Below, piece after piece: positions 1,274-52,602 of a stretch of 64,000 bases of DNA. The stretch comes from Melioribacteraceae bacterium (GTDB taxonomy: Bacteria > Bacteroidota > Ignavibacteria > Ignavibacteriales > Melioribacteraceae), in NCBI GenBank assembly GCA_026417375.1, contig JAOADJ010000013.1, positions 1-64,000 of the forward strand, written 5' to 3'. The notes under the pieces were generated by a model. The model did no database searches, was not told where the DNA came from, and saw nothing but the letters and a program-made list of their open reading frames with translations. Positions within the stretch are counted from its first letter, which is position 1. Every line of letters starts with the position of its first letter. The position numbers and the translations under genes were made by a program.

Positions 1274-2734
1274 ATGAATTCATCAAAAGAAAATATTGGA
1301 TTCAAAAAAGAACTTGGACTTTTTGATGCCACCATGATTGTTATTGGATCTTTAATTGGTTCGGGTATTTTTATTGTAAGCGCAGATATTGCTCGCACTG
1401 TTGGTTCAAGCGGATATTTAATTTTAGTTTGGATAATTACTGGAATAATAACTTTAGCAGGAGCTTTAAGTTATGGTGAACTTGCATCAATGATGCCTTT
1501 TGCCGGTGGTCAATATGTTTATTTAAAAGAATCTTATAATTCTTTTGTTGCTTTTCTTTATGGTTGGACTATGTTTCTTGTAATTCAAACAGGAACAATT
1601 GCAGCAGTAGCTGTTGCTTTTGCAAAATATACTGCAGTGTTAATCCCCTGGTTTAGTAGTAAAAATGTTCTGATCGATTTAATAGGAATTAAAATTTCTG
1701 CCGGACAAATTTTAGCCATATTAAGTGTAATACTTTTAACATATATAAATGTTAATGGAGTTAAAGAAGGAAAATTAGTGCAAAATATTTTTACAGTAGC
1801 AAAAACAATTTCTTTAATTGGACTTATAGTTTTGGGAATAATTATTGGCTCAAATGCTCAAGTAATACAACAAAATTTTTCTGATATGTGGAGCGCTTCA
1901 ACAGTTCATTTAAAAAACGGAATAATTGATTTTATTGAACCATTAACAGGATTTGCAATAATAGCTGCAATCGGAATGGCGATGGTAGGTTCTCTTTTTT
2001 CAAGTGTAGCCTGGGAAAATATAACATTTATTGCGGCAGAAGTTAAAGATCCCAAAAAAGTTATACCATGGAGTTTATTCTTAGGAACTTTGATTGTTAC
2101 AATTTTATATGTTTTAGCAAATATTTCATATTTATTTATTCTTCCTTTAAAAGGAGATCCAACAGCAAAAGATATTGCCGGAATGGGAATTCAATTTGCT
2201 GCCGAAGATAGAGTTGGAACGGCAGCTGCTCATTTTATTTTCGGCGATATTGCAGTAATTATTATGGCAATATTAATTATGATTTCTACTTTTGGATGTA
2301 ATAATGGTTTAATTCTTTCTGGCGCAAGAGTTTTTTATGCAATGTCTAAAGATAAATTATTTTTCAAATTTGCCGGTGAATTAAATAACAAAGGTGTTCC
2401 CGCAAAAGCATTATGGATACAAGCTGTCTGGATAAGTTTGTTATGCTTATCTGGTTCATATGGACAATTACTTGATTATGTTGTGGCAACAATTTTAGTG
2501 TTTTATATATTAACTATTGTTGGTGTTTATATTTTAAGAAAGAAAAAACCAAATGCAGAAAGACCATATAAAGTTTTTGCTTATCCAGTATTGCCTGCAA
2601 TTTACATTATACTTGCGGCAGCTGTTTCAGTAATTTTATTAATTTATAAACCCGATTACACATGGCCCGGATTGATTATTGTATCGATTGGAATTCCGGT
2701 TTATTTTATTTGGAAAAAGAATGACAACAAATAA
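1274..2734 (+). CDS. APC-family amino acid permease
   Basis: This 486-aa, very hydrophobic protein has about 12 predicted membrane segments. It begins with the APC superfamily signature near residues 17-35: LGLFDATMIVIGSLIGSGIF, the unwound TM1 substrate-binding helix. Later landmarks are a loop carrying FAGGQYVYLKE, the GIxFAAEDR region, a GCNNGLILSGARVFYAMSKD stretch and RPYKVFAYPVLP before the last helices. These fit LAT/SteT-like amino acid exchangers or permeases. The substrate cannot be read from sequence. The ATG has an AGAGG Shine-Dalgarno, and the gene probably shares a transcript with the MEMO gene 13 bp upstream. Confidence 0.9.
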   Translation: MNSSKENIGFKKELGLFDATMIVIGSLIGSGIFIVSADIARTVGSSGYLILVWIITGIITLAGALSYGELASMMPFAGGQYVYLKESYNSFVAFLYGWTMFLVIQTGTIAAVAVAFAKYTAVLIPWFSSKNVLIDLIGIKISAGQILAILSVILLTYINVNGVKEGKLVQNIFTVAKTISLIGLIVLGIIIGSNAQVIQQNFSDMWSASTVHLKNGIIDFIEPLTGFAIIAAIGMAMVGSLFSSVAWENITFIAAEVKDPKKVIPWSLFLGTLIVTILYVLANISYLFILPLKGDPTAKDIAGMGIQFAAEDRVGTAAAHFIFGDIAVIIMAILIMISTFGCNNGLILSGARVFYAMSKDKLFFKFAGELNNKGVPAKALWIQAVWISLLCLSGSYGQLLDYVVATILVFYILTIVGVYILRKKKPNAERPYKVFAYPVLPAIYIILAAAVSVILLIYKPDYTWPGLIIVSIGIPVYFIWKKNDNK

Positions 2735-2842
2735 AATATAAATTGAATGACACTTAATACTTTATAAAAGAAAAACTAAAATTTAATCTGAAGAAATATT
2801 TATGTTATATAAATTATTTGTTAAAGAAGAATTAAATTAATA

Positions 2843-2872
2843 TTTGATAATGATTAAAAATTTTTTATTTTG
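2843..2872 (+). promoter_or_regulatory. Possible Bacteroidota-type promoter of the envelope locus
   Basis: TTTG at 2843-2846 is followed after 19 bases by TATTTTG at 2866-2872. This is one base short of the Bacteroidota -7 consensus TAnnTTTG. It would start transcription about 50 bases before the parvulin gene and just ahead of the hairpin at 2881-2901. It is a motif match only, in very AT-rich DNA. Confidence 0.3.
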
Positions 2873-2880
2873 TGATGTGC

Positions 2881-2901
2881 AAGTTCAATTAGTTTGAACT
2901 T
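2881..2901 (+). promoter_or_regulatory. Perfect 8-bp inverted repeat in the 5' region of the envelope locus
   Basis: AAGTTCAA (2881-2888) and TTGAACTT (2894-2901) form a perfect inverted repeat with a 5-base spacer, 30 bases before the parvulin start codon. It could be an operator for a dimeric regulator or a hairpin in the 5' untranslated RNA. It lacks a T-run, so it is not a terminator. Confidence 0.35.
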
Positions 2902-2931
2902 ATCAAACCTCAAAAAGGCAAATAAAAAATT

Positions 2932-4599
2932 ATGAAGTGGACAAAAAAAATCTGTTCCAAATTTTCCATTCTTTTTGTCCTTTTAACTCTCACTAACTTA
3001 AACGCTAAAGGAAATTTCGATAAAAATACAATTTTAGCTTCCGTTGGCAAAAAAAACATTACCGTTGGCAATTTTTTAACCCGTTATTCTGATTATATTT
3101 TTTCTTCAGGTATTAAAGATAATATTGTTACTCGCCGCTCTATATTAAATAACATGATTAATGAAATCTTACTTTATCACTATGATGATAATTCAAATAT
3201 TTTTAATAATCCTGAATATAAAAAAGAACTAGAATGGGCTAGAAAACAAACAATTCTTGCGTTTCTAAAAGATCAGGAAATTTTTGCCAAACTTACTGCT
3301 ACAGAATCTGAATTAAGAGATGCATTCTTTAAAACTAATATGAAAGTTTCAGCCAGACATTTATTTGCAGAAACCGAAGAGGAAGCAGAAAATTTGTATC
3401 AACTTTTACAAACAGGAGCAGATTTTAATCAATTGGCAAAACAAGTTTTTACAGATTCAACTTTACAAAATAATGGTGGCTATTTGGGATTTTTTACCTG
3501 GGGAGATATGGATCCAAATTTTGAAGATGCAGCATTTAAATTAAATGAAGGTGAAATATCGAAACCAATTAAAACAAAATATGGTTTTAGCATTATTAAA
3601 GTAGAAAAAAAAATTGCCAATCCTATTATTACTGAAGATGAATTTTTAAGAAAGAAAAAACATGTTGAAAGAATAGTTAAAATGAGAAAAATTAGTTCCG
3701 AAGAGGAAAAATTCATAAATAAAATTTTCGATTCTAATAAACTCAAAATAAATGATAGTGCAATTAATTATATTTTTGAAAATTTATCTTCAATAAATCA
3801 AATTGAAAAAAATAACCCGCCAGAATTTTTATATGTCGTTAAGTATGGAAACAAAAATTATTCTCTAAATGAAGTGCTTCAAAAAATAAATGAATTACCT
3901 CCCTTCCACAGAAGAAAATTGAATTCAGTACAAAATATAAAAGCAATAATAAAAGGATTTGTTTTACAAGACATTCTTTTATCCATGGCAATTAAAAAAT
4001 CTTATGATAAAAATCCTGAAGTTCAAAAAGTAATTTCAAATTATTTTGATAATATTTTTCTTCGTTATAAAAGAGAAGAAGTTGCAAATGCAAAAGTATT
4101 TCCAGATAGCTTAATTTATAAATTTTATGTTGATAATCCTCAGTATTTTATGAATGAAAACCAAATTAATGTACAAGAAATTATTTTAGATAATAAAGAA
4201 TTAGCTGATAGTTTAATTAATGAAATAAAAAAAGGAACAAACTTTGGCTTGCTTGCAAAAAAATTTTCATTGAGAGAATGGTCAGCAAAAAATAATGGCG
4301 AAATCGGATTATCTGATATTTCTAAATTTGGTGGAATAAAAGATACACTTTGGAAAAGTGAAACAGGTAATGTTGTTGGACCAATTAAAATTCAGGAAAT
4401 GTTTGGTATCTTTAAAATATTAGATAAAAAAAATGGCGATGTTAAAGATTTTACAGAAGTAAAAAATTTAGCTCACAGATTATTAAAAAAAGAGAAATCA
4501 AAACCTATTATGGAAGAATATATTGAAAAACTCAGAAGAAAAACTACTGTGGTTTGGGATGATAAATTGTTGGGTTCATTAGAACTACAAAAAAATTAA
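2932..4599 (+). CDS. Periplasmic parvulin-type peptidyl-prolyl isomerase (SurA/PrsA-like), two parvulin domains
   Basis: This 555-aa protein has an N-terminal signal peptide ending near LNAKG, then a SurA-N-like chaperone segment (VGKKNITVGNFL). A parvulin domain follows at about residues 135-230 (ARHLFAETEEEAENLY, GGYLGFFTWGDM, KTKYGFSIIKVEKK). A second, more divergent parvulin-like domain lies at about 410-510 (VQEIILDNKELADSL, GEIGLSDISKF). Such proteins escort and isomerise outer-membrane and secreted proteins. The gene opens an operon encoding a TonB receptor, a large secreted protein and a PorV-like protein, so assisting their folding is a natural inference. A paralogue with the same architecture lies at 45400. 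Confidence 0.88.
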   Translation: MKWTKKICSKFSILFVLLTLTNLNAKGNFDKNTILASVGKKNITVGNFLTRYSDYIFSSGIKDNIVTRRSILNNMINEILLYHYDDNSNIFNNPEYKKELEWARKQTILAFLKDQEIFAKLTATESELRDAFFKTNMKVSARHLFAETEEEAENLYQLLQTGADFNQLAKQVFTDSTLQNNGGYLGFFTWGDMDPNFEDAAFKLNEGEISKPIKTKYGFSIIKVEKKIANPIITEDEFLRKKKHVERIVKMRKISSEEEKFINKIFDSNKLKINDSAINYIFENLSSINQIEKNNPPEFLYVVKYGNKNYSLNEVLQKINELPPFHRRKLNSVQNIKAIIKGFVLQDILLSMAIKKSYDKNPEVQKVISNYFDNIFLRYKREEVANAKVFPDSLIYKFYVDNPQYFMNENQINVQEIILDNKELADSLINEIKKGTNFGLLAKKFSLREWSAKNNGEIGLSDISKFGGIKDTLWKSETGNVVGPIKIQEMFGIFKILDKKNGDVKDFTEVKNLAHRLLKKEKSKPIMEEYIEKLRRKTTVVWDDKLLGSLELQKN

Positions 4600-4621
4600 A
4601 TATGAATTATTGGAGCGCATT

Positions 4622-7300
4622 ATGAAAAAAATCATTACGAAATTAATTTTATTAATTACAATACCAACTTTTGTTTTTGCCGGCACAACAGGTAAGCTCA
4701 CTGGTAAAGTAATTGATAAAAAAACAGGAGAGCCGTTACCCTTTGTAAATGTTGTTATTGAAGGAACTTCATTGGGTGCCGCAACCGATCTTGATGGAAA
4801 ATATACTATACTAAATATTCCTCCCGGAAAGTATAGTGTGAAATTTCAATACGTAGGTTATCAATCAGTTGTTATTCAAAATGTACAAATATCAATCGAT
4901 TTAACTACAACTCAGGATGTTGTAATGGAAGAAACTGCTGTTGAAATGCAGGCAATTGTTGTTGAAGGTAAAGCAGATAAAATTCAAAAAGATATTACTT
5001 CTAGCCAGGCAAGAGTAACATCAGAAGAAATTAAAAATTTACCTGTTGCTGAACTTTCTGATGTCCTTCAACTACAAGCTGGTGTTACAAGAGGTGCTGG
5101 TGGAGAATTTCATATTCGTGGCGGTCGTTCTTCTGAAATTGCTTATTGGGTAAATGGTATTTCTATTACCGATGCTTTTGACAATAGCCGTGGAATTGAA
5201 ATTGACAATTCAAGTGTTCAGGAATTACAAGTAATAAGTGGAACATTCAATGCTGAATATGGACAAGCTCTTTCAGGAATTGTTAATACTGTAACAAAAG
5301 AGGGAGGACAATCTCTAAAAGGTGATGTTAAAGTTTATGGTAGTGATTATGCAAGTAACTTTACAGATTATTTTGTCGGTATAGACAAATTTAGTCCGAT
5401 TGCAAACTATAATGTACAAGGAAGTCTTAGTGGACCCATTCCATTTACAAATAACAAACTAACATTTTTTACAAATCTTAGATACGTATATGATGATGGA
5501 TATTTATATGGTTACAAAAAATATAATACAGATGGAACTCCAGCCGATGGAAAATTAACTGCAATGAATTGGAATAAAAGATTAATTGGACAAGCAAATT
5601 TAGCATGGTTGCTTGCTGGTGCAATTAAACTTAATGCCGAAGTATTATTTTCAAATGAAAAGTTTAGAGATTATAGTCATTTCTTTAAATGGAATCCCGA
5701 TGGTGATGTAAAGAAATTCGCAAATAGTTATAATGCAACGTTTACATTAACACATACTTTATCAAGTAAAACTTTTTACACATTAAAAATTTCTGATTTC
5801 TATAAAGACTTTAAAGAATACTTATATGAAGATCCATTCGATTCGAGATACTTTCACCCCGATTCTTTAAGAACTGTCGGTTATGCTTTTGTAACAAAAG
5901 GAACAAACCTTCATCGTTTTTACAGAGAAACAAATACATTAATTGGTAAAATAGATTTTACAAGTCAAATTTCTGAAAATCACTTAATTAAATTTGGTTT
6001 TGAAGGAAGAACTCACAAACTTGCATTTGACGATTATTATCTCGAACCTTTAAGAGTAAATGGAGTTCCTGTTGAACCATTTAAACCTTCGATACCAGAA
6101 GCTAACACTCCAAACAGAACAAAATATGATGCAGAACCAATAGAATTTTCCGCATATATTCAAGATAAAATTGAATATCAAAGTGTAATTATTAACATTG
6201 GATTACGATTAGATTATTTTAATTCAAAAGGAAATATTTTAGCTGATCCAACTGATCCAAATATTTATTTACCATTAAGAACAGAATTAGAAAAATTACC
6301 AATATCGGAAAGAGAACAATATTTCTATAAAAAAGCAGAACCTAAATGGTCTATCGGACCACGTTTTGGTGTGGCTTATCCAATTAGCGATCAAGGAGTT
6401 TTACATTTTTCTTATGGACAATTTTTACAAATTCCATCTTTTCAATATTTATTTAATCGCGGTCCTTACTTGGTTCCTAATACCGGAAGTGGTTATGGAC
6501 CTTACGGTAACCCGGATTTAAAACCACAACAAACAGTAATGTATGAAATTGGTTTTAAACAACAATTCTTTGAAGATTTTTCTTTAGACGTAACCGGCTT
6601 CTATCGAGATATTAGAAACTGGATTACTGCGGGTCCTCTTATTTCAACACGTAATTTAGTTTCATATTCAACTTTTATTAATAAAGATTATTCAAACGTA
6701 AAAGGTATTACATTTAACTTGAATAAAAGATTTACTAATCATTATTCAATTGATTTGAATTACACTTATCAAGTTGCTGAAGGAAGTAATTCAAATCCTG
6801 AAGATGAATTTTTTGCACAGCTTGGAAATAACGAACCGACATTATATTTAATTCCACTCGATTGGGATCAAAGACATTTACTTAATCTATCACTTTTTGT
6901 TGGTGATGTAGATTGGGGAATTTCAACAATAGCACGTTATGGAACAGGATTACCATACACACCATCAATAACTCAATTTACTGCTGATAGAGGAATAACA
7001 TCTGGCTTGCAAAGAAACAGCAGAAGAAGACCAACACAATTTTCAGTTGATCTTAGATTACACAAATCTTTAAATGTACTTGGATTGAATGTTACTACAT
7101 TTTTGCGTGTCTTTAATTTACTTGATAATAAAATTGCTGTTAATGTTTTTGGTGATACAGGAAAGCCAGATTATACAACAGAAGGAAAAAATATTGGTTA
7201 TGATCCCAACAGACCAAATACAGTTGAAGAATATTTACGTTATCCATGGAATTATGGAGAACCAAGAAGAGTTGAATTTGGATTTGAATTTTCATTCTAA
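4622..7300 (+). CDS. TonB-dependent outer-membrane receptor with carboxypeptidase-regulatory-like N-terminal domain
   Basis: The protein is 892 aa when started at the ATG at 4622, which follows TTGGAGCG. An in-frame TTG at 4610 is less likely because the signal peptide begins MKKIITKLILL. Domains in order are: signal peptide; a CarboxypepD_reg-like beta-sandwich at about 24-110 (GKVIDKKTGEPLPFVNVVIEG, then GAATDLDGKYTILNIPPGKY); a TonB plug (VAELSDVLQLQAGVTRGAGG, FHIRGGRSSEIAYWVNG, AEYGQALSGIVNTVTKEGG); and a beta-barrel ending in EFGFEFSF with the expected terminal Phe. It lies between a parvulin gene and a large secreted protein gene. The substrate is unknown; no SusD-type partner is present. 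Confidence 0.9.
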   Translation: MKKIITKLILLITIPTFVFAGTTGKLTGKVIDKKTGEPLPFVNVVIEGTSLGAATDLDGKYTILNIPPGKYSVKFQYVGYQSVVIQNVQISIDLTTTQDVVMEETAVEMQAIVVEGKADKIQKDITSSQARVTSEEIKNLPVAELSDVLQLQAGVTRGAGGEFHIRGGRSSEIAYWVNGISITDAFDNSRGIEIDNSSVQELQVISGTFNAEYGQALSGIVNTVTKEGGQSLKGDVKVYGSDYASNFTDYFVGIDKFSPIANYNVQGSLSGPIPFTNNKLTFFTNLRYVYDDGYLYGYKKYNTDGTPADGKLTAMNWNKRLIGQANLAWLLAGAIKLNAEVLFSNEKFRDYSHFFKWNPDGDVKKFANSYNATFTLTHTLSSKTFYTLKISDFYKDFKEYLYEDPFDSRYFHPDSLRTVGYAFVTKGTNLHRFYRETNTLIGKIDFTSQISENHLIKFGFEGRTHKLAFDDYYLEPLRVNGVPVEPFKPSIPEANTPNRTKYDAEPIEFSAYIQDKIEYQSVIINIGLRLDYFNSKGNILADPTDPNIYLPLRTELEKLPISEREQYFYKKAEPKWSIGPRFGVAYPISDQGVLHFSYGQFLQIPSFQYLFNRGPYLVPNTGSGYGPYGNPDLKPQQTVMYEIGFKQQFFEDFSLDVTGFYRDIRNWITAGPLISTRNLVSYSTFINKDYSNVKGITFNLNKRFTNHYSIDLNYTYQVAEGSNSNPEDEFFAQLGNNEPTLYLIPLDWDQRHLLNLSLFVGDVDWGISTIARYGTGLPYTPSITQFTADRGITSGLQRNSRRRPTQFSVDLRLHKSLNVLGLNVTTFLRVFNLLDNKIAVNVFGDTGKPDYTTEGKNIGYDPNRPNTVEEYLRYPWNYGEPRRVEFGFEFSF

Positions 7301-7326
7301 ATAAAGTTTAATAGGAGATAAAATAG

Positions 7327-10300
7327 ATGAACAAAACAATTAAAATATTATTTGCGTTATTTATTTCACTTACGATGACTGCAAATATTGATGCACAATA
7401 TAAACCGGGAAAAGAAAGAGGCGACCCGACTAAACGTGCAAAAGGACAAATGGAAGGAAACAAAATAAGAACTACTGTTTTCAACTTTGGTATGTCTGGT
7501 CGCGAAGGTGGTCAATATCCAATCACTGTACAAACACCTTATGAATGGCCTAAAAACACCGGACAAGTTTATTTAGCTATGCTTGGAATTTTTGTAGGTG
7601 GCGAAGTAGTTGATAACAAAGGAGAAACTCAAAGAATAATTGATGTTTACAATTACAGAAGATCACCCGAAGGTAAATCATGGAATTTTGAACCTGTTCC
7701 GGGCTACAGTAAAACAAATCCTAAAACAAAAGAAAATCAAGTTGCTACAAGTGTTGACCCTGATACCTGGCCCGATAGTTGGCCAGATAGAATGAATGAT
7801 GAAGTTGATCCCGGTTGGAAAGGTGCATGGAATGGTTACTTCGGAAAAAATATTTTCAATGCTGATCAGGAAATGTTCTATCGTGCTTCAGATGATAACT
7901 ATTCCAGATATGTAAATTATTTTCCGGATGAAACTGACCTAACAAGAAAAGGATTAGGTATTTTACTTGATGTTAGAGCTTTAGCATGGTCTCAGGTTTT
8001 AGTTGAAGATGCACTTTACTTTTTACATTATGTTAAAAATGATGGAACTAAAGATATTAAAAAAGTTGGTGTAACTTTATGGTATGCAGATTTTGTTGGT
8101 GGTGATGGAGATTCTCAAGATGATATTTCTGAGTTTGATTTAATTCAAGATATCGCATGGTCTCGCGATAATGACCACAAAGCACCAAACTTTGGAAGTA
8201 ATCCTGTTGGAATGGTTGGTGTAACTTTCCTGGAAACTCCCGGTAATGCAGTTGATAGAATTGATAATGATGGCGATAGCCCTGAACAAGGAAATATTAT
8301 TTCTGCTGATATGATAGTTGGTGAAATACCTGATAATCAAGTTGATGATAATGGAAATGGGCTCATTGATGAAAATGAAACTCACATTCCTTTTGGAACA
8401 CAAGTTGGTGTTACTTATTCTGATGGTATCGCTCAACCAATAAGTCCTGAATGGCTTTCTAAACATCCAAGATTTAAATTTGAAAAAAATTCTCCAATTG
8501 TAACTCAACAAATGATCGATCAGGCATCGGCTCCAACAAACAAATGGAAAATTTGGCCACCACTCGATGCATTTCAGCGAGGACAAATTCATTTAATAAA
8601 AGTTACATCAGAAAAACTCGGATTACCTTTTAAAGATAGAATTGATAACGATGGAGATGGTGAAGAAAAAAGCCCCGTCGTAACACAGGCAATGATAATG
8701 GAAGCAGCAAAAGATGCACCTTATTACAGATATAGAGTTAATGATAAAGTTGTTTTATATAATGTTGTTGCATCAACCCTTGGTAAAAAATATGCCGATG
8801 GAATAGACAATGACAATAACGGAGCAATTGATGAAGGTATTGATGATGGAATTGATGTAATGATAGATGAAGCTAGAGATGATGCTTTTGATAACGATTT
8901 TGATTGGGATCCAATCCGTGATGATGTTGGTTTAGATGGAGTTCCTGATACCGGCGACCCGGGTGAAAATGATGGAAAACCAACCAGCGGTGCAAGATTT
9001 GGTTTGCCGGGTGAACCTAAAATTGATGTTACTGACGTTTCAGAAACAGATCAGATTGGTATTACTAATGCAGATTATGTTCCTGCAGGTGGTTTAAATA
9101 TTAACAGCGATGCACAAATGTGGTTCGATTTTATGATCCCGGGAAAATTTTATGATCCTAAAGAAGTTGTTGCCGGTGAATATGATTTGTTTGTTTCTTC
9201 AGGATTATTCCCATTAAAATCGGGTCAAACAGAACCAATTTCTATTGCTATTTTATTTGCCAATGGTCCAGTGCCTGATCCAAATGGTGAATATCGTAAA
9301 AATGAAATTTTAAGAAAAAGAGTTCGTGCTCAGGAAACTTATAATAACGATTATAGATTTGCTAATGCTCCGGTTGCACCAAACGTAACAGCAATTGCCG
9401 GCAATAATAAAGTAACTTTATATTGGGACGATATAGCTGAAAGTACATTCGATCAATATATTGATGCAATTGGTGGAAACGGACGTGATTTTGAAGGTTA
9501 CAAAATTTATCGTGCATCCGATCCAGCGTTCCAAGATGCAGAAAAAATTACAAATGGTTATGGAGTTCTTCAATTTAAAACTCCAATAGCTCAATTCGAT
9601 TTAGTTAATGGAATAAAAGGATTTGACCCTGTTGGAATTGATGGAGTTAAATATTATTTAGGAAATGATACTGGAATTAAACATACATTTGTTGATACAA
9701 CAGTTCAAAATGGATTTACTTATTACTATGCAGTTGTAGCTTACGATTTTGGATTCCCGGCTGGTCAAATTGCTCCTTCAGAATCACCAATAAGAATTTC
9801 TTTACAAGCAGATGGCTCTGTTAAACTTGGACAAAATGTTGTTCGTGTAAAACCAGAGGCTCCGGCTGCTGGTTATGTGCCACCAACTTTAGGTAAAATT
9901 CAATTAAAACAAGGAACAACTTCCGGTACTGTTACATATGAAATAGTTGATATAAATAAAATTAAAGATGGCCATGTTTATCATATTACTTTTGAAGATA
10001 CAATTAAAGTCTCAAAAAGATTAGGTCAACCCGATACATTAACTACTAAGAATTGGACTTTGAGAGATTCAACAGCCGGAGTTACTTTAATTAATAAGAG
10101 TAAAATTTTAGCATCAGATTATGAACAACCTTTAACAGATGGATTCAGATTAAAATTCTTCAATGAAAAAAGAGTTGAATTGGATAGAACAGTTTCTGTA
10201 TGGAATGATCCTAAAATTGTAGATTATCGTTTCGAAAAATTCCAAGCTACTGGTGGTTTTATTGGTGAAGAAAGACCTAACGATTACAGAATTGAATTCG

Positions 10301-11001
10301 GAGAAGTTGGAACTGGTACTTCAACTGAATTGAAACTTGGTGCTAATACATTCCCATCTAAGAAAACAAACTTTAAAGTATTCAACTTAAGTACTAATAA
10401 ATATATTGAATTCGCATTCATCGAGATAGATGGAAATGATGGAAACTTAACCTCAAATGGAGCAATAAGAGATAGAATTATTTTCTTAGAACCAGATAAA
10501 ACAGGAAAATTAGTTTATACATGGTGGTTCTATTTATATGATACTCCAAGTGAAACTTTAGGTACAAGATTTCCAAAAGCCGGAGATAAAATAGAACTTA
10601 GATTGAAGAAACCATTTTTATCTGCTGATGTTTTCCGTTTTGTAGCTAAAAGCGGAAAAATAGATTTAGACTTAGCTAAACAGGAACTTGAAAAAGTAAA
10701 AGTTGTTCCTAATCCTTATGTTGCATCTGCAATGTGGGAACCAAAGAATCCATATTCAAGCGGACGTGGTCCTCGTTCTTTACATTTTACACATTTACCA
10801 AATAAATGTACTATAAGAATATTTACTGTTAATGGAGAACTTGTTGACGTTATTGAACATGAAAGTCCATTTAACAATGGTACAGCCGAATGGAAAATGT
10901 TAACTAAAGATAACCTGAATGTAGCTTATGGTGTTTATGTTTATCATATTGAAGCACCTGGTATTGGTGAAAAGATAGGTAAGTTCGCAATTATTAAATA
11001 A
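7327..11001 (+). CDS. Large secreted protein with EF-hand-like Asp repeats, fibronectin-like domain and T9SS-type C-terminus
   Basis: This 1224-aa protein starts with a signal peptide (MNKTIKILFALFISLTM). Three clusters of Asp/Asn-rich loops resemble calcium-binding dockerin or thrombospondin-3 motifs: near residue 310 (RIDNDGDSPEQG, then DDNGNGLIDENE), near 437 (RIDNDGDGEE) and at 488-530 (GIDNDNNGAIDEGIDDG). A fibronectin-III-like module follows from about 680 (VTLYWDD to YYYAVVAYDFG). The last 100 residues carry VVPNPYV and AYGVYVYHIEAPG ending KFAIIK, the layout of a FlgD-like or T9SS sorting domain. A strong AGGAG precedes the ATG. Its place between a TonB receptor and a PorV-like gene supports surface export. 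I recognise no enzymatic domain. Confidence 0.7.
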   Translation: MNKTIKILFALFISLTMTANIDAQYKPGKERGDPTKRAKGQMEGNKIRTTVFNFGMSGREGGQYPITVQTPYEWPKNTGQVYLAMLGIFVGGEVVDNKGETQRIIDVYNYRRSPEGKSWNFEPVPGYSKTNPKTKENQVATSVDPDTWPDSWPDRMNDEVDPGWKGAWNGYFGKNIFNADQEMFYRASDDNYSRYVNYFPDETDLTRKGLGILLDVRALAWSQVLVEDALYFLHYVKNDGTKDIKKVGVTLWYADFVGGDGDSQDDISEFDLIQDIAWSRDNDHKAPNFGSNPVGMVGVTFLETPGNAVDRIDNDGDSPEQGNIISADMIVGEIPDNQVDDNGNGLIDENETHIPFGTQVGVTYSDGIAQPISPEWLSKHPRFKFEKNSPIVTQQMIDQASAPTNKWKIWPPLDAFQRGQIHLIKVTSEKLGLPFKDRIDNDGDGEEKSPVVTQAMIMEAAKDAPYYRYRVNDKVVLYNVVASTLGKKYADGIDNDNNGAIDEGIDDGIDVMIDEARDDAFDNDFDWDPIRDDVGLDGVPDTGDPGENDGKPTSGARFGLPGEPKIDVTDVSETDQIGITNADYVPAGGLNINSDAQMWFDFMIPGKFYDPKEVVAGEYDLFVSSGLFPLKSGQTEPISIAILFANGPVPDPNGEYRKNEILRKRVRAQETYNNDYRFANAPVAPNVTAIAGNNKVTLYWDDIAESTFDQYIDAIGGNGRDFEGYKIYRASDPAFQDAEKITNGYGVLQFKTPIAQFDLVNGIKGFDPVGIDGVKYYLGNDTGIKHTFVDTTVQNGFTYYYAVVAYDFGFPAGQIAPSESPIRISLQADGSVKLGQNVVRVKPEAPAAGYVPPTLGKIQLKQGTTSGTVTYEIVDINKIKDGHVYHITFEDTIKVSKRLGQPDTLTTKNWTLRDSTAGVTLINKSKILASDYEQPLTDGFRLKFFNEKRVELDRTVSVWNDPKIVDYRFEKFQATGGFIGEERPNDYRIEFGEVGTGTSTELKLGANTFPSKKTNFKVFNLSTNKYIEFAFIEIDGNDGNLTSNGAIRDRIIFLEPDKTGKLVYTWWFYLYDTPSETLGTRFPKAGDKIELRLKKPFLSADVFRFVAKSGKIDLDLAKQELEKVKVVPNPYVASAMWEPKNPYSSGRGPRSLHFTHLPNKCTIRIFTVNGELVDVIEHESPFNNGTAEWKMLTKDNLNVAYGVYVYHIEAPGIGEKIGKFAIIK

Positions 11002-15189: not shown

Positions 15190-16119
15190 CTAAAAAACCC
15201 TTATATGAAAATCAGTCAGAAACTTAATTTCCTGATGAAGCATTTCTACATGTAAAGGAGTTTTACCAATGAATTCACCATCGGCTTCAATAAAGCACTC
15301 TTTGTTTGATTCAATTTTTATTTGCTTAGAGTGAAAATAATTTATCATAGGATGATCGATTTTTTCACATTTCCTTAAGTTGAAAAAGTTTTTTAAATAA
15401 TCATAAATTGAAACTTCTCCAATTAATGTAACAGAAATTTTTCCATCATTAACTTTAGCATGTGGAGCAATTCCTAAACCGCTACCAAAATATTTTGCAT
15501 TAGCAAAAGTTACGAGTAATGTATTCCCTTCATAAAATTCTTCATCTGTAAATAATCTTATTTTTTTTTGTTTGTATTTAAGAAAAGATTTTATAGTTGC
15601 AGAAAAGAATGAAATGTTCGGTCCATATTTTTTATTCCCTTCGTTAACACGTTTTGCAACTTCGGCATCTAAACCAACACCTGCTATGTTAATGAAGTAT
15701 GTTGTTGAATCTTTGTCTTCCAAATTTTTGTGTTCTATTTTTCCAACATCAATTTCAACAAATTTATTTTCGCTTATTAAATTACTTAAGAATGAAATTT
15801 TATGAGATAGTTTTAATGTTCTTGCGAAATCATTTCCACTTCCTAGAGGAAGCAAACCTACAATTAAATTTTCTCTTTCTTCTTTCGGAATTTTCATTAT
15901 TCCATTTATTACTTCGTGGATTGTACCATCTCCACCAACCGCAATTAAATAATCTGATTTCGACTTTACAATTTTTTCAGCTAAATCTTCTGCGGCTTTC
16001 GGTGTTTTAGTTATAAAATATTCGGTTAAAAAATTTTTTGAAAAATACTTTTCAGCTTCGTATTGAATTAATCTTTTTCTTAAATGTTTTCCATGAATTA
16101 TAAAAGAAATTCTTTTCAA
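15190..16119 (-). CDS. Diacylglycerol kinase-family lipid kinase (YegS/BmrU type)
   Basis: This 309-aa protein has the DAGK catalytic signature VGGDGTIHEVINGI near residue 78 and LLPLGSGNDFARTL near 107. The C-terminal lobe carries FGSGLGIAPHAKVNDGKISV and ends with an FIEADGE-type motif. The family phosphorylates diacylglycerol, undecaprenol or sphingoid-type lipids with ATP; which one cannot be read from sequence. The start codon overlaps the stop of the upstream zinc-ribbon gene by 4 bases, implying translational coupling. A second family member lies at 28023. Confidence 0.88.
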   Translation of the reverse strand: MKRISFIIHGKHLRKRLIQYEAEKYFSKNFLTEYFITKTPKAAEDLAEKIVKSKSDYLIAVGGDGTIHEVINGIMKIPKEERENLIVGLLPLGSGNDFARTLKLSHKISFLSNLISENKFVEIDVGKIEHKNLEDKDSTTYFINIAGVGLDAEVAKRVNEGNKKYGPNISFFSATIKSFLKYKQKKIRLFTDEEFYEGNTLLVTFANAKYFGSGLGIAPHAKVNDGKISVTLIGEVSIYDYLKNFFNLRKCEKIDHPMINYFHSKQIKIESNKECFIEADGEFIGKTPLHVEMLHQEIKFLTDFHIRVF

Positions 16120-28022: not shown

Positions 28023-28922
28023 ATGAAAATATTACACATAAATAATCCGGCAGCTGCAAATGGAAAAAGTCATAAATTATTTCCATTAATTAAAAAACAA
28101 TTTGAAAAACTTCAGCTACATCATGAATCAATTCAAACAAAATATGCCGGTCAGGCAACCGAGATAATTTCTTCTGTTGATTTTAACAAATATAAATGTA
28201 TTGCTGTTTCAGGAGGGGATGGTTCTCTCTTCGAAGTTGTTAATGGCTACATGAAAAATTCTTCAAAGAATAAAATTCCAATCGTTCCAATTCCAATTGG
28301 TAGAGGAAATGCTTTTGCTAGAGATTTGAACTTTCAACCAGATAACTGGGAAAATTCATTAAATGCTATTTCAAAAAATGAAGTAATTAATTCCGATGTC
28401 GGTTATTGCAAAACATCAAATTCAGAATTTTATTTTGTAAATATTTTAGGATTTGGTTTTGTAACTGATATTGCTGAAACAGCATTTAAATTAAGATCGT
28501 TTGGACATCTTTCATATGTTGTTGGAGTTATTTACCAAACAATAAATTTAAAGTCATATAAGTTAAAAATTGAAATTGATGAAAAAGTAATTGAAAGAGA
28601 CAATGTTTTTGTTGAAATATCAAATACAAAATATACTGGTAAAGATTTTTTAATGGCACCAAATGCAAAAATAAATGATGGCTTATTGGATATCACCTTA
28701 CTGAATAAATTATCAAGAAAAAGAGTTCTTCAAGCTTTGCCAAAAATTTTTACCGGTGAACATATTCATATGAAAGAAGTTGAGACCTTCAAAGCAAAAA
28801 AAATTAAAATAGAAACAGAACCTAAAAAAACTTTAACCCCCGATGGTCAAATAATGGAATCAACTCCAATTGAAATCGAATGTTTGCCAAATGCTATTTC
28901 ATTTATTCACAATGTTACTTAA
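28023..28922 (+). CDS. Diacylglycerol kinase-family lipid kinase (second copy)
   Basis: This 299-aa protein begins with the family start ILHINNPAAANGKSH. Catalytic motifs are AVSGGDGSLFEVVNGY near residue 64 and VPIPIGRGNAFARDL near 90. The C-lobe has KDFLMAPNAKINDGLLDI and ends with TPDGQIMESTPIEIE. The GRGNAFA variant replaces the GSGNDFA of the copy at 15190, so the two probably use different lipids. The 3' end overlaps the convergent dehydratase gene by 8 bases. Confidence 0.87.
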   Translation: MKILHINNPAAANGKSHKLFPLIKKQFEKLQLHHESIQTKYAGQATEIISSVDFNKYKCIAVSGGDGSLFEVVNGYMKNSSKNKIPIVPIPIGRGNAFARDLNFQPDNWENSLNAISKNEVINSDVGYCKTSNSEFYFVNILGFGFVTDIAETAFKLRSFGHLSYVVGVIYQTINLKSYKLKIEIDEKVIERDNVFVEISNTKYTGKDFLMAPNAKINDGLLDITLLNKLSRKRVLQALPKIFTGEHIHMKEVETFKAKKIKIETEPKKTLTPDGQIMESTPIEIECLPNAISFIHNVT

Positions 28923-29868
28923 ATGGTAAATTAGTTAAATCAACATTTCCACCCGTAAGAATTATAGCAACATTTTTATTTAAAAACTTTTCTTGATTTT
29001 CTTTAACTATTGCTAAAGCAACGGCACTCGATGGTTCAATTATTATTTTCATTCGTTCCCAAATCAATTTCATTGACTCAATTATTGTTTCTTCTTCAGC
29101 GGTTAAAATTTCATCAACATTATTAATAATGATGTTAAAGGTTTTTTCACTCAACTGAGTTAATAAACCATCGCAAATTGTTTTAGGATTAACAGAAGGA
29201 TAAATTTTCTTATCGTAAAAAGATCGAAAAGCATCATCAGCACCTTTGGGTTCTGCCCCTATTACTTTTGTTTTAGGAGAAAAATATTTTGTACTTAATG
29301 AAGTCCCGCTTAATAATCCGCCACCACCAACTGGTGTTATTATAAAATCAATATCATTAAATTCTTCGAAAATTTCCTGAGAAGCTGTTGATTGACCGGC
29401 AATAACATCATAGTTATCAAAAGGATGAATAAAATTTGCATTTGTTTCTGCGATAACTTCATTTAGTTTTTCTTCACGCGATTTCAATGTTGGTTCAGAA
29501 AAAATAATTTTTGCTCCATAATTAGCAACAGCTTTCTTTTTAATTTCTGGCGCAGTATGTGGCATAACAATGTAAGCAGGAATATTTTTCAATTTTGCTG
29601 CAAGAGATATTGCTGCCGCATGATTTCCAGATGAATGTGTTGCAATTCCGTTTCTCAATTCATTTTCTTTTAATGATAAAACTGCATTACTTGCCCCACG
29701 AAATTTAAATGCACCAACTTTCTGAAAATTTTCGCACTTGAAAAAAATATTTGCACCGGTTATTTCATTAATTGATGATGAAGTTAAAACTGGTGTTTTC
29801 TTAACTTGATTCTTAATTCTTTCTCTTGCTTGTATTAAATCGTCTTTTGATAAAAAATTATTTTTCAT
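28915..29868 (-). CDS. PLP-dependent serine/threonine dehydratase (or serine racemase-type)
   Basis: This 317-aa fold-type II PLP enzyme has the Schiff-base lysine in VGAFKFRGASNAV, the substrate loop HSSGNHAAA and the phosphate-binding glycine loop VGGGGLLSG. It ends with LTGGNVDL. It lacks the C-terminal ACT regulatory domain of biosynthetic IlvA, so a catabolic threonine/serine ammonia-lyase or a serine/aspartate racemase fits best. It is divergent from the trp leader, sharing about 80 bases of upstream DNA. Confidence 0.87.
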   Translation of the reverse strand: MKNNFLSKDDLIQARERIKNQVKKTPVLTSSSINEITGANIFFKCENFQKVGAFKFRGASNAVLSLKENELRNGIATHSSGNHAAAISLAAKLKNIPAYIVMPHTAPEIKKKAVANYGAKIIFSEPTLKSREEKLNEVIAETNANFIHPFDNYDVIAGQSTASQEIFEEFNDIDFIITPVGGGGLLSGTSLSTKYFSPKTKVIGAEPKGADDAFRSFYDKKIYPSVNPKTICDGLLTQLSEKTFNIIINNVDEILTAEEETIIESMKLIWERMKIIIEPSSAVALAIVKENQEKFLNKNVAIILTGGNVDLTNLPFK

Positions 29869-51511: not shown

Positions 51512-52477
51512 TTACTCTGTTGCAGTTGTTAAACCACCTCGATTATTTCTAACCATTCTCGAAAACAAAGAAAGATTTTTATCAAATAAAAATCTAAACA
51601 AAAGTTTTACCCATGATTTATGATATTTCAAGTTATCGTAAAACTCCGGTGCCATTTTTTTTAGCTGTGGTAATTTATTCCAGGGAACAGAGGGAAAATC
51701 ATGATGTTCATTATGATAACCAACATTTAAAGCTAAAATGTTAAGTGGACCATAATAGCCATAAGTTTCTTGAGGTGGAAAAGTTAAATAATGCTCTTGA
51801 ATCCATCTTGCACCAAGTGGATGTAATCCGACAGAAAAAAACAAAGAAGCAATAAAATATAAAAAAGCACTCCATCCAAAATTATATATTAAAAAAAGAT
51901 CAAAGCCGAAAACCACAATCCAATTTATTACAGTCCATTTATTTAAAAAATTTATTTCTTTCAAACGAGGTGGACGTAGTGCTTGAAAAACCGGAAAAAA
52001 TAAAAGCCAAAAGGCTTTTCCTAAAAATGTATTACCAATTAATTTTGCTTCCCAGCGGCTAGCTAAATCTGCATCAAGATAGTAATCACCTTGAAATGAA
52101 TGATGTTTAAGATGATAACTTCTAAACGAAATTGCTGTTGGGATTGAATTTGGAATATCTGCAATTATACTGGATATCATATTTGCAGTTTTTGATTTGA
52201 AAATTAAATTATGAGCTGCTTCATGTATTAAAACAAAAAGTGCATGATTTGCAAACGCACCTACAAAGTATGCAACAATTAAAACTAACCAAATTGATTT
52301 GTCGCTTAAAAAAACTGCAAGAGAAATTTGTATTGAAACAATTAAGACAATTAATAAAAAACTAAAATTGTTTCTTGAAATTAAATTTCTCACTTCGGGA
52401 TGTGCCTTTAAAATTTTTTTTGTTCTTTCTTTATGTGGTTCAGGTTCGGTTGAGTAATAAAAATCCTGTTGTTTCAT
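51512..52477 (-). CDS. Fatty-acyl/sphingolipid delta-4 desaturase-like membrane enzyme (DEGS1-like)
   Basis: The protein is 321 aa from the ATG at 52477, with GAGG upstream; the longer frame from 52537 lacks support. The N-terminus (DFYYSTEPEPHKERTKKIL) matches the special lipid-desaturase N-terminal motif of dihydroceramide desaturases. Three histidine boxes follow at 85-89 (HEAAH), 122-126 (HLKHH) and 255-259 (HNEHHDFP). The last one and ETYGYYGPLN are close to human DEGS1 (323 aa as I recall). The di-iron enzyme would insert a double bond in a lipid; ceramide as substrate is an inference. Confidence 0.85.
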   Translation of the reverse strand: MKQQDFYYSTEPEPHKERTKKILKAHPEVRNLISRNNFSFLLIVLIVSIQISLAVFLSDKSIWLVLIVAYFVGAFANHALFVLIHEAAHNLIFKSKTANMISSIIADIPNSIPTAISFRSYHLKHHSFQGDYYLDADLASRWEAKLIGNTFLGKAFWLLFFPVFQALRPPRLKEINFLNKWTVINWIVVFGFDLFLIYNFGWSAFLYFIASLFFSVGLHPLGARWIQEHYLTFPPQETYGYYGPLNILALNVGYHNEHHDFPSVPWNKLPQLKKMAPEFYDNLKYHKSWVKLLFRFLFDKNLSLFSRMVRNNRGGLTTATE

Positions 52478-52602
52478 AGTAGCCTCTATGAAATAAATTA
52501 ACGGTATTAAGCTAATTAAGTAAACACACTTTTGCAATTAAAATCAACTATACATTATTTATTAATACCTTCTTATATTTCGAATGAATTTAGGTGATAA
52601 CT

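Follow-up and report, generated by a model that had tools for sequence, protein, structure and literature searches.

A gene in the window, by which we mean the whole 64,000-nucleotide stretch of DNA that was analysed, probably encodes a bacterial sphingolipid delta-4 desaturase of the DES/DEGS family, an integral-membrane di-iron protein with three His boxes. The sphingolipids of bacteria are usually portrayed as dihydroceramides, which are saturated; in eukaryotic signalling it is the 4,5 double bond that sets ceramide apart from dihydroceramide. The window DES most likely acts as an O2-dependent di-iron desaturase of the sphingoid base and produces 4E-ceramide. In the proposed pathway Spt would act first, and N-acylation by a bCerS-like enzyme together with ketone reduction by a CerR-like enzyme would then yield dihydroceramide. 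The window DES, if expressed and served by a presumed electron donor, would use O2 and two electrons to remove two hydrogens at C4-C5 of the sphingoid base, giving 4E-ceramide.

The open reading frame is intact on the minus strand (Table 1), and its product carries DFYYSTEPEPHKER, HEAAH, HLKHH and ETYGYYGPLN...HNEHHDFP. An alternative TTG start at 52537 would lengthen the protein to 341 aa; the ATG was preferred because homologues begin near its position. An initial annotation of this DNA had described a protein of DEGS1 length, with the N-terminal lipid-desaturase motif and three His boxes ordered and spaced as in DEGS, and our analysis confirmed each of these features. Pfam recognised Lipid_DES (PF08557) at 50.7-54.6 bits against a gathering cut-off of 23 (E 1.2e-13 in the library-wide scan) and FA_desaturase (PF00487) at 103 bits, while the Lipid_DES profile had 0 matches in 14 control genomes. 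The His boxes, which are the catalytic ligands, were invariant across 35 aligned bacterial relatives. An AlphaFold2 model computed with 35 sequences reached a pLDDT of 91, and fold comparison with the PDB retrieved AlkB (Z 14) and SCD1 (Z 6), both of the membrane di-iron superfamily. At such Z scores, which describe a helical membrane protein, the comparison is consistent with the membrane di-iron fold class and is not specific for DES. A sequence search of solved structures returned no match to the window DES; in a viral structure library its model matched nothing closer than distant desaturases, and a search of the viral sequence collection found no DES relatives.

Table 1. Coordinates of the window features and of DES-containing sphingolipid clusters in relatives.
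Feature	Sequence	Position	Strand	Details
DES-family membrane di-iron desaturase, proposed dihydroceramide (sphingoid-base) desaturase	Window	51512..52477	-	321 aa; ATG at 52477, stop codon included at 51512
N-terminal Lipid_DES motif (PF08557)	Window	52373..52474	-	Residues ~2-35, including DFYYSTEPEPHKERTKKILKAHPEVRNLIS; Pfam (residues 23-55 in the 341-aa version; G000:C19:52373-52471)
His box I, HEAAH	Window	52211..52225	-	Residues 85-89; H85 and H89 invariant in alignment
His box II, HLKHH	Window	52100..52114	-	Residues 122-126; H122, H125 and H126 invariant
His box III, HNEHH	Window	51701..51715	-	Residues 255-259, within ETYGYYGPLN...NVGYHNEHHDFP; H255, N256, E257, H258 and H259 invariant
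Lipid kinase	Window	15190-16119	-	DAGK_cat and YegS_C
Lipid kinase	Window	28023-28922	+	DAGK_cat and YegS_C; NCBIfam TIGR00147, YegS/Rv2252/BmrU type
FA_hydroxylase-Spt-bCerS-DES-CerR	L100	2957-8853	One strand	Five consecutive genes overlapping at their ends
Same gene order as L100	L179 (G486)	4873-10821		DES and CerR overlap by 4 bases
FA_hydroxylase-Spt-bCerS-CerR-DES-MIPS-PgpA	L140 (Saprospiraceae MAG ACE_BAC3)	1813-8930		MIPS, myo-inositol-phosphate synthase

BLASTP of the window DES against human DEGS1 gave 36% identity and 58% positives over 321 aa (E 3e-76), the human DEGS1 and DEGS2 sequences in BLASTP and the tree serving as yardsticks rather than database records. The term near-identical, which the initial annotation used for the third His-box region (ETYGYYGPLN...HNEHHDFP), does not hold outside that region, identity being 36% overall. 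Could the protein instead be an ordinary desaturase of acyl lipids or fatty acids, with no more than a resemblance to DES? The FA_desaturase domain is broad and shared, and no sphingolipid genes are clustered with the window DES, but the Lipid_DES domain, the full-length similarity to DEGS1 and the presence of family members in Spt operons make this very unlikely. Moreover, the FA_desaturases outside the DES family in ten related genomes matched the window DES at best with E 2e-4 over 21 residues, and DEGS1 at best with E 0.025 over short stretches; full-length similarity to same-phylum acyl desaturases was not found. Since other desaturases gave only marginal short matches, the match of the window DES is specific to the DES family.

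In a tree of 49 rows, the window DES was placed within an Ignavibacteriota clade (100/99). DEGS1 and DEGS2 nested with a bacterial sub-clade (L033-L035 and L184-L186; 98/98), different from that of the window DES, and did not fall outside all bacteria; monophyly of bacterial DES to the exclusion of eukaryotes was marginally rejected (p-AU 0.047). The branch splitting DES and DEGS from other FADs was weak (55/64) because other desaturases were barely alignable, and at that point the BLAST contrast carries more weight. As to the grouping check proposed with the initial annotation, the window DES fell in the Lipid_DES family together with DEGS1/DEGS2, themselves nested among its bacterial members (98/98), and not with generic acyl desaturases. 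Because DEGS, of known function, and the members found in Spt operons lie in different parts of the family, the window DES is bracketed by two lines that speak for a sphingolipid substrate. The bacterial proteins L033, L034, L035, L036, L184, L185 and L186 group with human DEGS1, and eukaryotic DEGS may have arisen from them or be their sister; four of them, L033-L036, share 43-49% identity with the human DEGS1 sequence.

The strongest new evidence came from the gene clusters of relatives, which point to a sphingolipid substrate without relying on sequence similarity. DES lies inside a sphingolipid cluster in three Saprospiraceae-type genomes (L100, L179 and L140; Table 1). The Spt of L100, a locus of the Saprospiraceae MAG SKYG121 whose contig also appears as G494:C128, scored above the NCBIfam equivalog cut-off (647 vs 640). 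These three operons could be a bacterial route to inositol-sphingolipids that are both hydroxylated and unsaturated, with the FA_hydroxylase as a possible acyl 2-hydroxylase. PgpA follows all three operons, and L140 also has MIPS. On one strand of L113, Pfam identified MIPS-PgpA-GtrA-...-CDP-alcohol phosphatidyltransferase-DUF4833-FA_hydroxylase-DES, and BLAST and gene order revealed the same arrangement in L137; in L108, DES is paired with an FA_hydroxylase.

Most DES genes, that of the window included, are unclustered. The window DES stands alone, its neighbours being one convergent and one divergent gene, both unrelated. Synteny of the window DES and its Ignavibacteriota orthologues revealed no conserved sphingolipid neighbours, and Spt was absent from all Ignavibacteriota DES neighbourhoods examined. 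The initial annotation's central claim, a bacterial homologue of dihydroceramide delta-4 desaturase, is supported by family, tree and the relatives' gene clusters; we infer the substrate from these clusters and from DEGS1, and the delta-4 position and the geometry of the double bond are predictions.

Spt was searched for in the host genome (G000; 2.83 Mb, 99% complete), as the initial annotation had proposed, and an Spt-type synthase was found on contig C41. Neither of the two outcomes that the initial annotation had named as contradicting its claim was thus observed. The best PDB match of this alpha-oxoamine synthase was the Sphingobacterium Spt (372 bits vs 274 for the best Kbl/BioF-type chain), and it fell in the Spt clade, apart from SulA and Kbl (92/89). 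It keeps the catalytic Lys, His, Asn and Arg (GTFSK, DNHAC, GSNNY, MMRTS) and has Ala at the column of SulA Lys281 (FSAS vs FAKS in SulA), the residue used as Spt/SulA marker (PMC9304779). The synthase is Spt-like by clade, marker and context, and not by the cut-off of the NCBIfam Spt equivalog NF047600 (474 bits, below 640). Beside it are encoded a GNAT protein, 40% identical to the bCerS candidate of L100, and a divergent SDR, 32% identical to the CerR candidate of that locus; by cluster position and family we name the two as bCerS-like and CerR-like candidates. Two heme-copper oxidases are encoded in the same genome and point to O2 use, so that the O2 needed by the di-iron desaturase class can be available. 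Co-presence of these pathway genes with DES in the host is in itself weak evidence, since Spt-like genes occur in nearly every genome of the window's own order, whereas DES is scattered there (Lipid_DES in 13 of 28 genomes). Co-occurrence of DES and Spt within that order was rejected as evidence for the same reason.

A search of the synthase family found two members in the host genome, neither of them SulA-type. The second (L003/L063; C50:51849-52937) is very divergent, and its best PDB match was Spt, not SulA. Its marker column is neither Spt- nor SulA-type, and it adjoins genes resembling a PLP-dependent amino-acid decarboxylase and an FeS oxidoreductase. The only other FA_desaturase of the host (L065; C50:109316-109879, 223 aa) has by eye the look of a CrtW-like carotenoid ketolase, and similar genes are present in G031 and G070.

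In two wider samples, DES was associated with Spt. Lipid_DES proteins were present in 58 of 249 genomes of another order of the same phylum (that of G253), and here DES occurred in 21/34 genomes with curated-level Spt vs 37/215 without (Fisher p=1.9e-7, kinship ignored). Across the phylum, 30 of 296 sampled genomes had Lipid_DES proteins, with DES in 6/10 genomes with curated-level Spt vs 24/286 without (p=1e-4, kinship ignored). In the 249-genome sample, 37 DES carriers lack a curated-level Spt; of these, 27 encode an Spt-like synthase of at least 480 bits and 10 do not. Eight Spt-less DES genomes, all chosen as DES carriers, were checked for SulA (six of these 10, plus G146 and G249 of the phylum sample), and a SulA-type synthase was found in every one (L198-L205, in G249, G407, G521, G503, G527, G150, G146 and G491). 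The eight synthases are L203 itself or 62-90% identical to it, and the SulA Lys marker is present; the best PDB match of L203 was cysteate-C-fatty acyltransferase (563 bits vs 238 for Spt). DES thus seems to accompany whichever synthase supplies the sphingoid or capnoid base, which suggests that DES-family enzymes may desaturate sulfonolipids too.

The same genomes bear on two other substrates for the window DES. Given the analogous backbones and the Lys281-marked synthase in all eight checked genomes, the window DES might itself desaturate sulfonolipids (N-acyl capnine), alone or alongside sphingolipids; we consider this highly improbable, as the host's two synthases are one Spt-type (Ala) and one divergent, the latter closest in the PDB to Spt and not to SulA. 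Four DES carriers outside the SulA count (G321, G351, G397 and G454; two of the genomes incomplete) have no Spt-like synthase, as might be expected if the substrate of DES were some other long-chain lipid, either an amide (such as an N-acyl amino-acid lipid) or an alcohol. Repeated clustering of DES with Spt, bCerS and CerR and with inositol-lipid genes leaves this reading with almost no probability, and a sphingolipid substrate is favoured.

A further alternative keeps family and substrate and changes the reaction: the sphingoid base would be hydroxylated at C4, as by DEGS2, to give phytoceramide, or desaturated at a position other than C4. DES-family enzymes can be bifunctional, as known from DEGS2. 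Box III of the window DES is HNEHH, presumably the DEGS1 type, where DEGS2 would have HVEHH, a marker that is suggestive only. HVEHH, the DEGS2-type form, was found in box III of two bacterial DES, L181 (8000-9028) and L189 (8388-9377), so outcomes may vary within the DES family; these two proteins are candidate C4-hydroxylases. The window DES, by contrast, has HNEHH as in DEGS1, kept in the 35 aligned relatives, and we regard hydroxylation or another position as unlikely here and delta-4 desaturation as the preferred reaction.

The initial annotation had also pointed to two kinases of the DAGK/sphingosine-kinase fold elsewhere in the window. Both have the DAGK_cat and YegS_C domains (Table 1), which upholds the fold; assignment as sphingosine kinases, and the supporting weight placed on them, did not stand, since the kinases are of generic YegS type and add nothing to the sphingolipid reading. 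Convergent with the YegS-type kinase, a PLP enzyme is encoded at window positions 28915-29868 (minus strand), with 424 bits to beta-hydroxyaspartate dehydratase BhcB against a cut-off of 550.

A scan of the collection identified at least 563 relatives of the window DES. Ignavibacteriota, Saprospiraceae, Chitinophagaceae, Sphingobacteriaceae and Cytophagales account for most of the best 80, and MAGs labelled KSB1, Gemmatimonadales and Leptospiraceae for a few; the nearest among them, with up to 76% identity, come from Ignavibacteriae and Melioribacter MAGs, which makes Ignavibacteriota the most likely phylum of the host. The DES genes L108 (JAEUSA010000031.1, Leptospiraceae-labelled) and L116 (JAUWDL010000174.1, Gemmatimonadales-labelled) have either been transferred out of Bacteroidota or come from contigs that were mis-binned.

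Since the Pfam model already recognises bacterial DES homologues, the window protein adds to a known family as one of hundreds of bacterial members. The open-access literature yielded no experimental account of a dihydroceramide desaturase in bacteria, nor of an Spt-bCerS-DES-CerR cluster; for a search confined to such papers, this is weak evidence. Unsaturated ceramides of the animal kind are probably among the lipids of some bacteria. A broader and distinctly more tentative proposal, which we rate as less probable, is that a bacterial step of ceramide desaturation has become established in the Spt-bCerS-DES-CerR and inositol-lipid clusters of Bacteroidota and yields true 4E-ceramides (also 4E-sulfonolipids in SulA species), and that eukaryotic DEGS descended from within this family. 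If the bacterial DES genes work as proposed, many environmental Bacteroidota and Ignavibacteriota, including cultured Pedobacter, Mucilaginibacter and Chitinophaga, would make sphingosine-type lipids, and environmental sphingosine could no longer be assigned to eukaryotes. Placement of DEGS within a bacterial family would bear on the origin of the eukaryotic enzyme.

Compared with known systems, the window DES resembles eukaryotic DEGS1/DES (PF08557) in length, N-terminal motif, number and spacing of the three His boxes and the YYGPLN...HNEHHDFP block; it differs in sharing 36% identity and belonging to another sub-clade, and its activity is a predicted one. SulA, the sulfonolipid synthase of Alistipes finegoldii, is like Spt a base-forming enzyme, and is found in Spt-less DES genomes but not in the genome of the window. 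The inositol-lipid cluster of B. thetaiotaomicron, BT_1522-1526, has been described without a desaturase or FA hydroxylase (PMC9246714), unlike L113 and L137, where four genes matching it by annotation (MIPS, PgpA, GtrA and CDP-alcohol transferase) precede DES; in L140, MIPS and PgpA come after DES, and genes of this type do not surround the window DES. Finally, the bacterial ceramide pathway Spt-bCerS-CerR of Caulobacter and Bacteroidota has been described without a desaturase step in two papers whose text does not mention a desaturase (PMC11087976, PMC11334938). The host of the window resembles it in having an Spt-type gene with adjacent GNAT and SDR genes, and in relatives of the window DES, a DES gene is inserted into the cluster itself.
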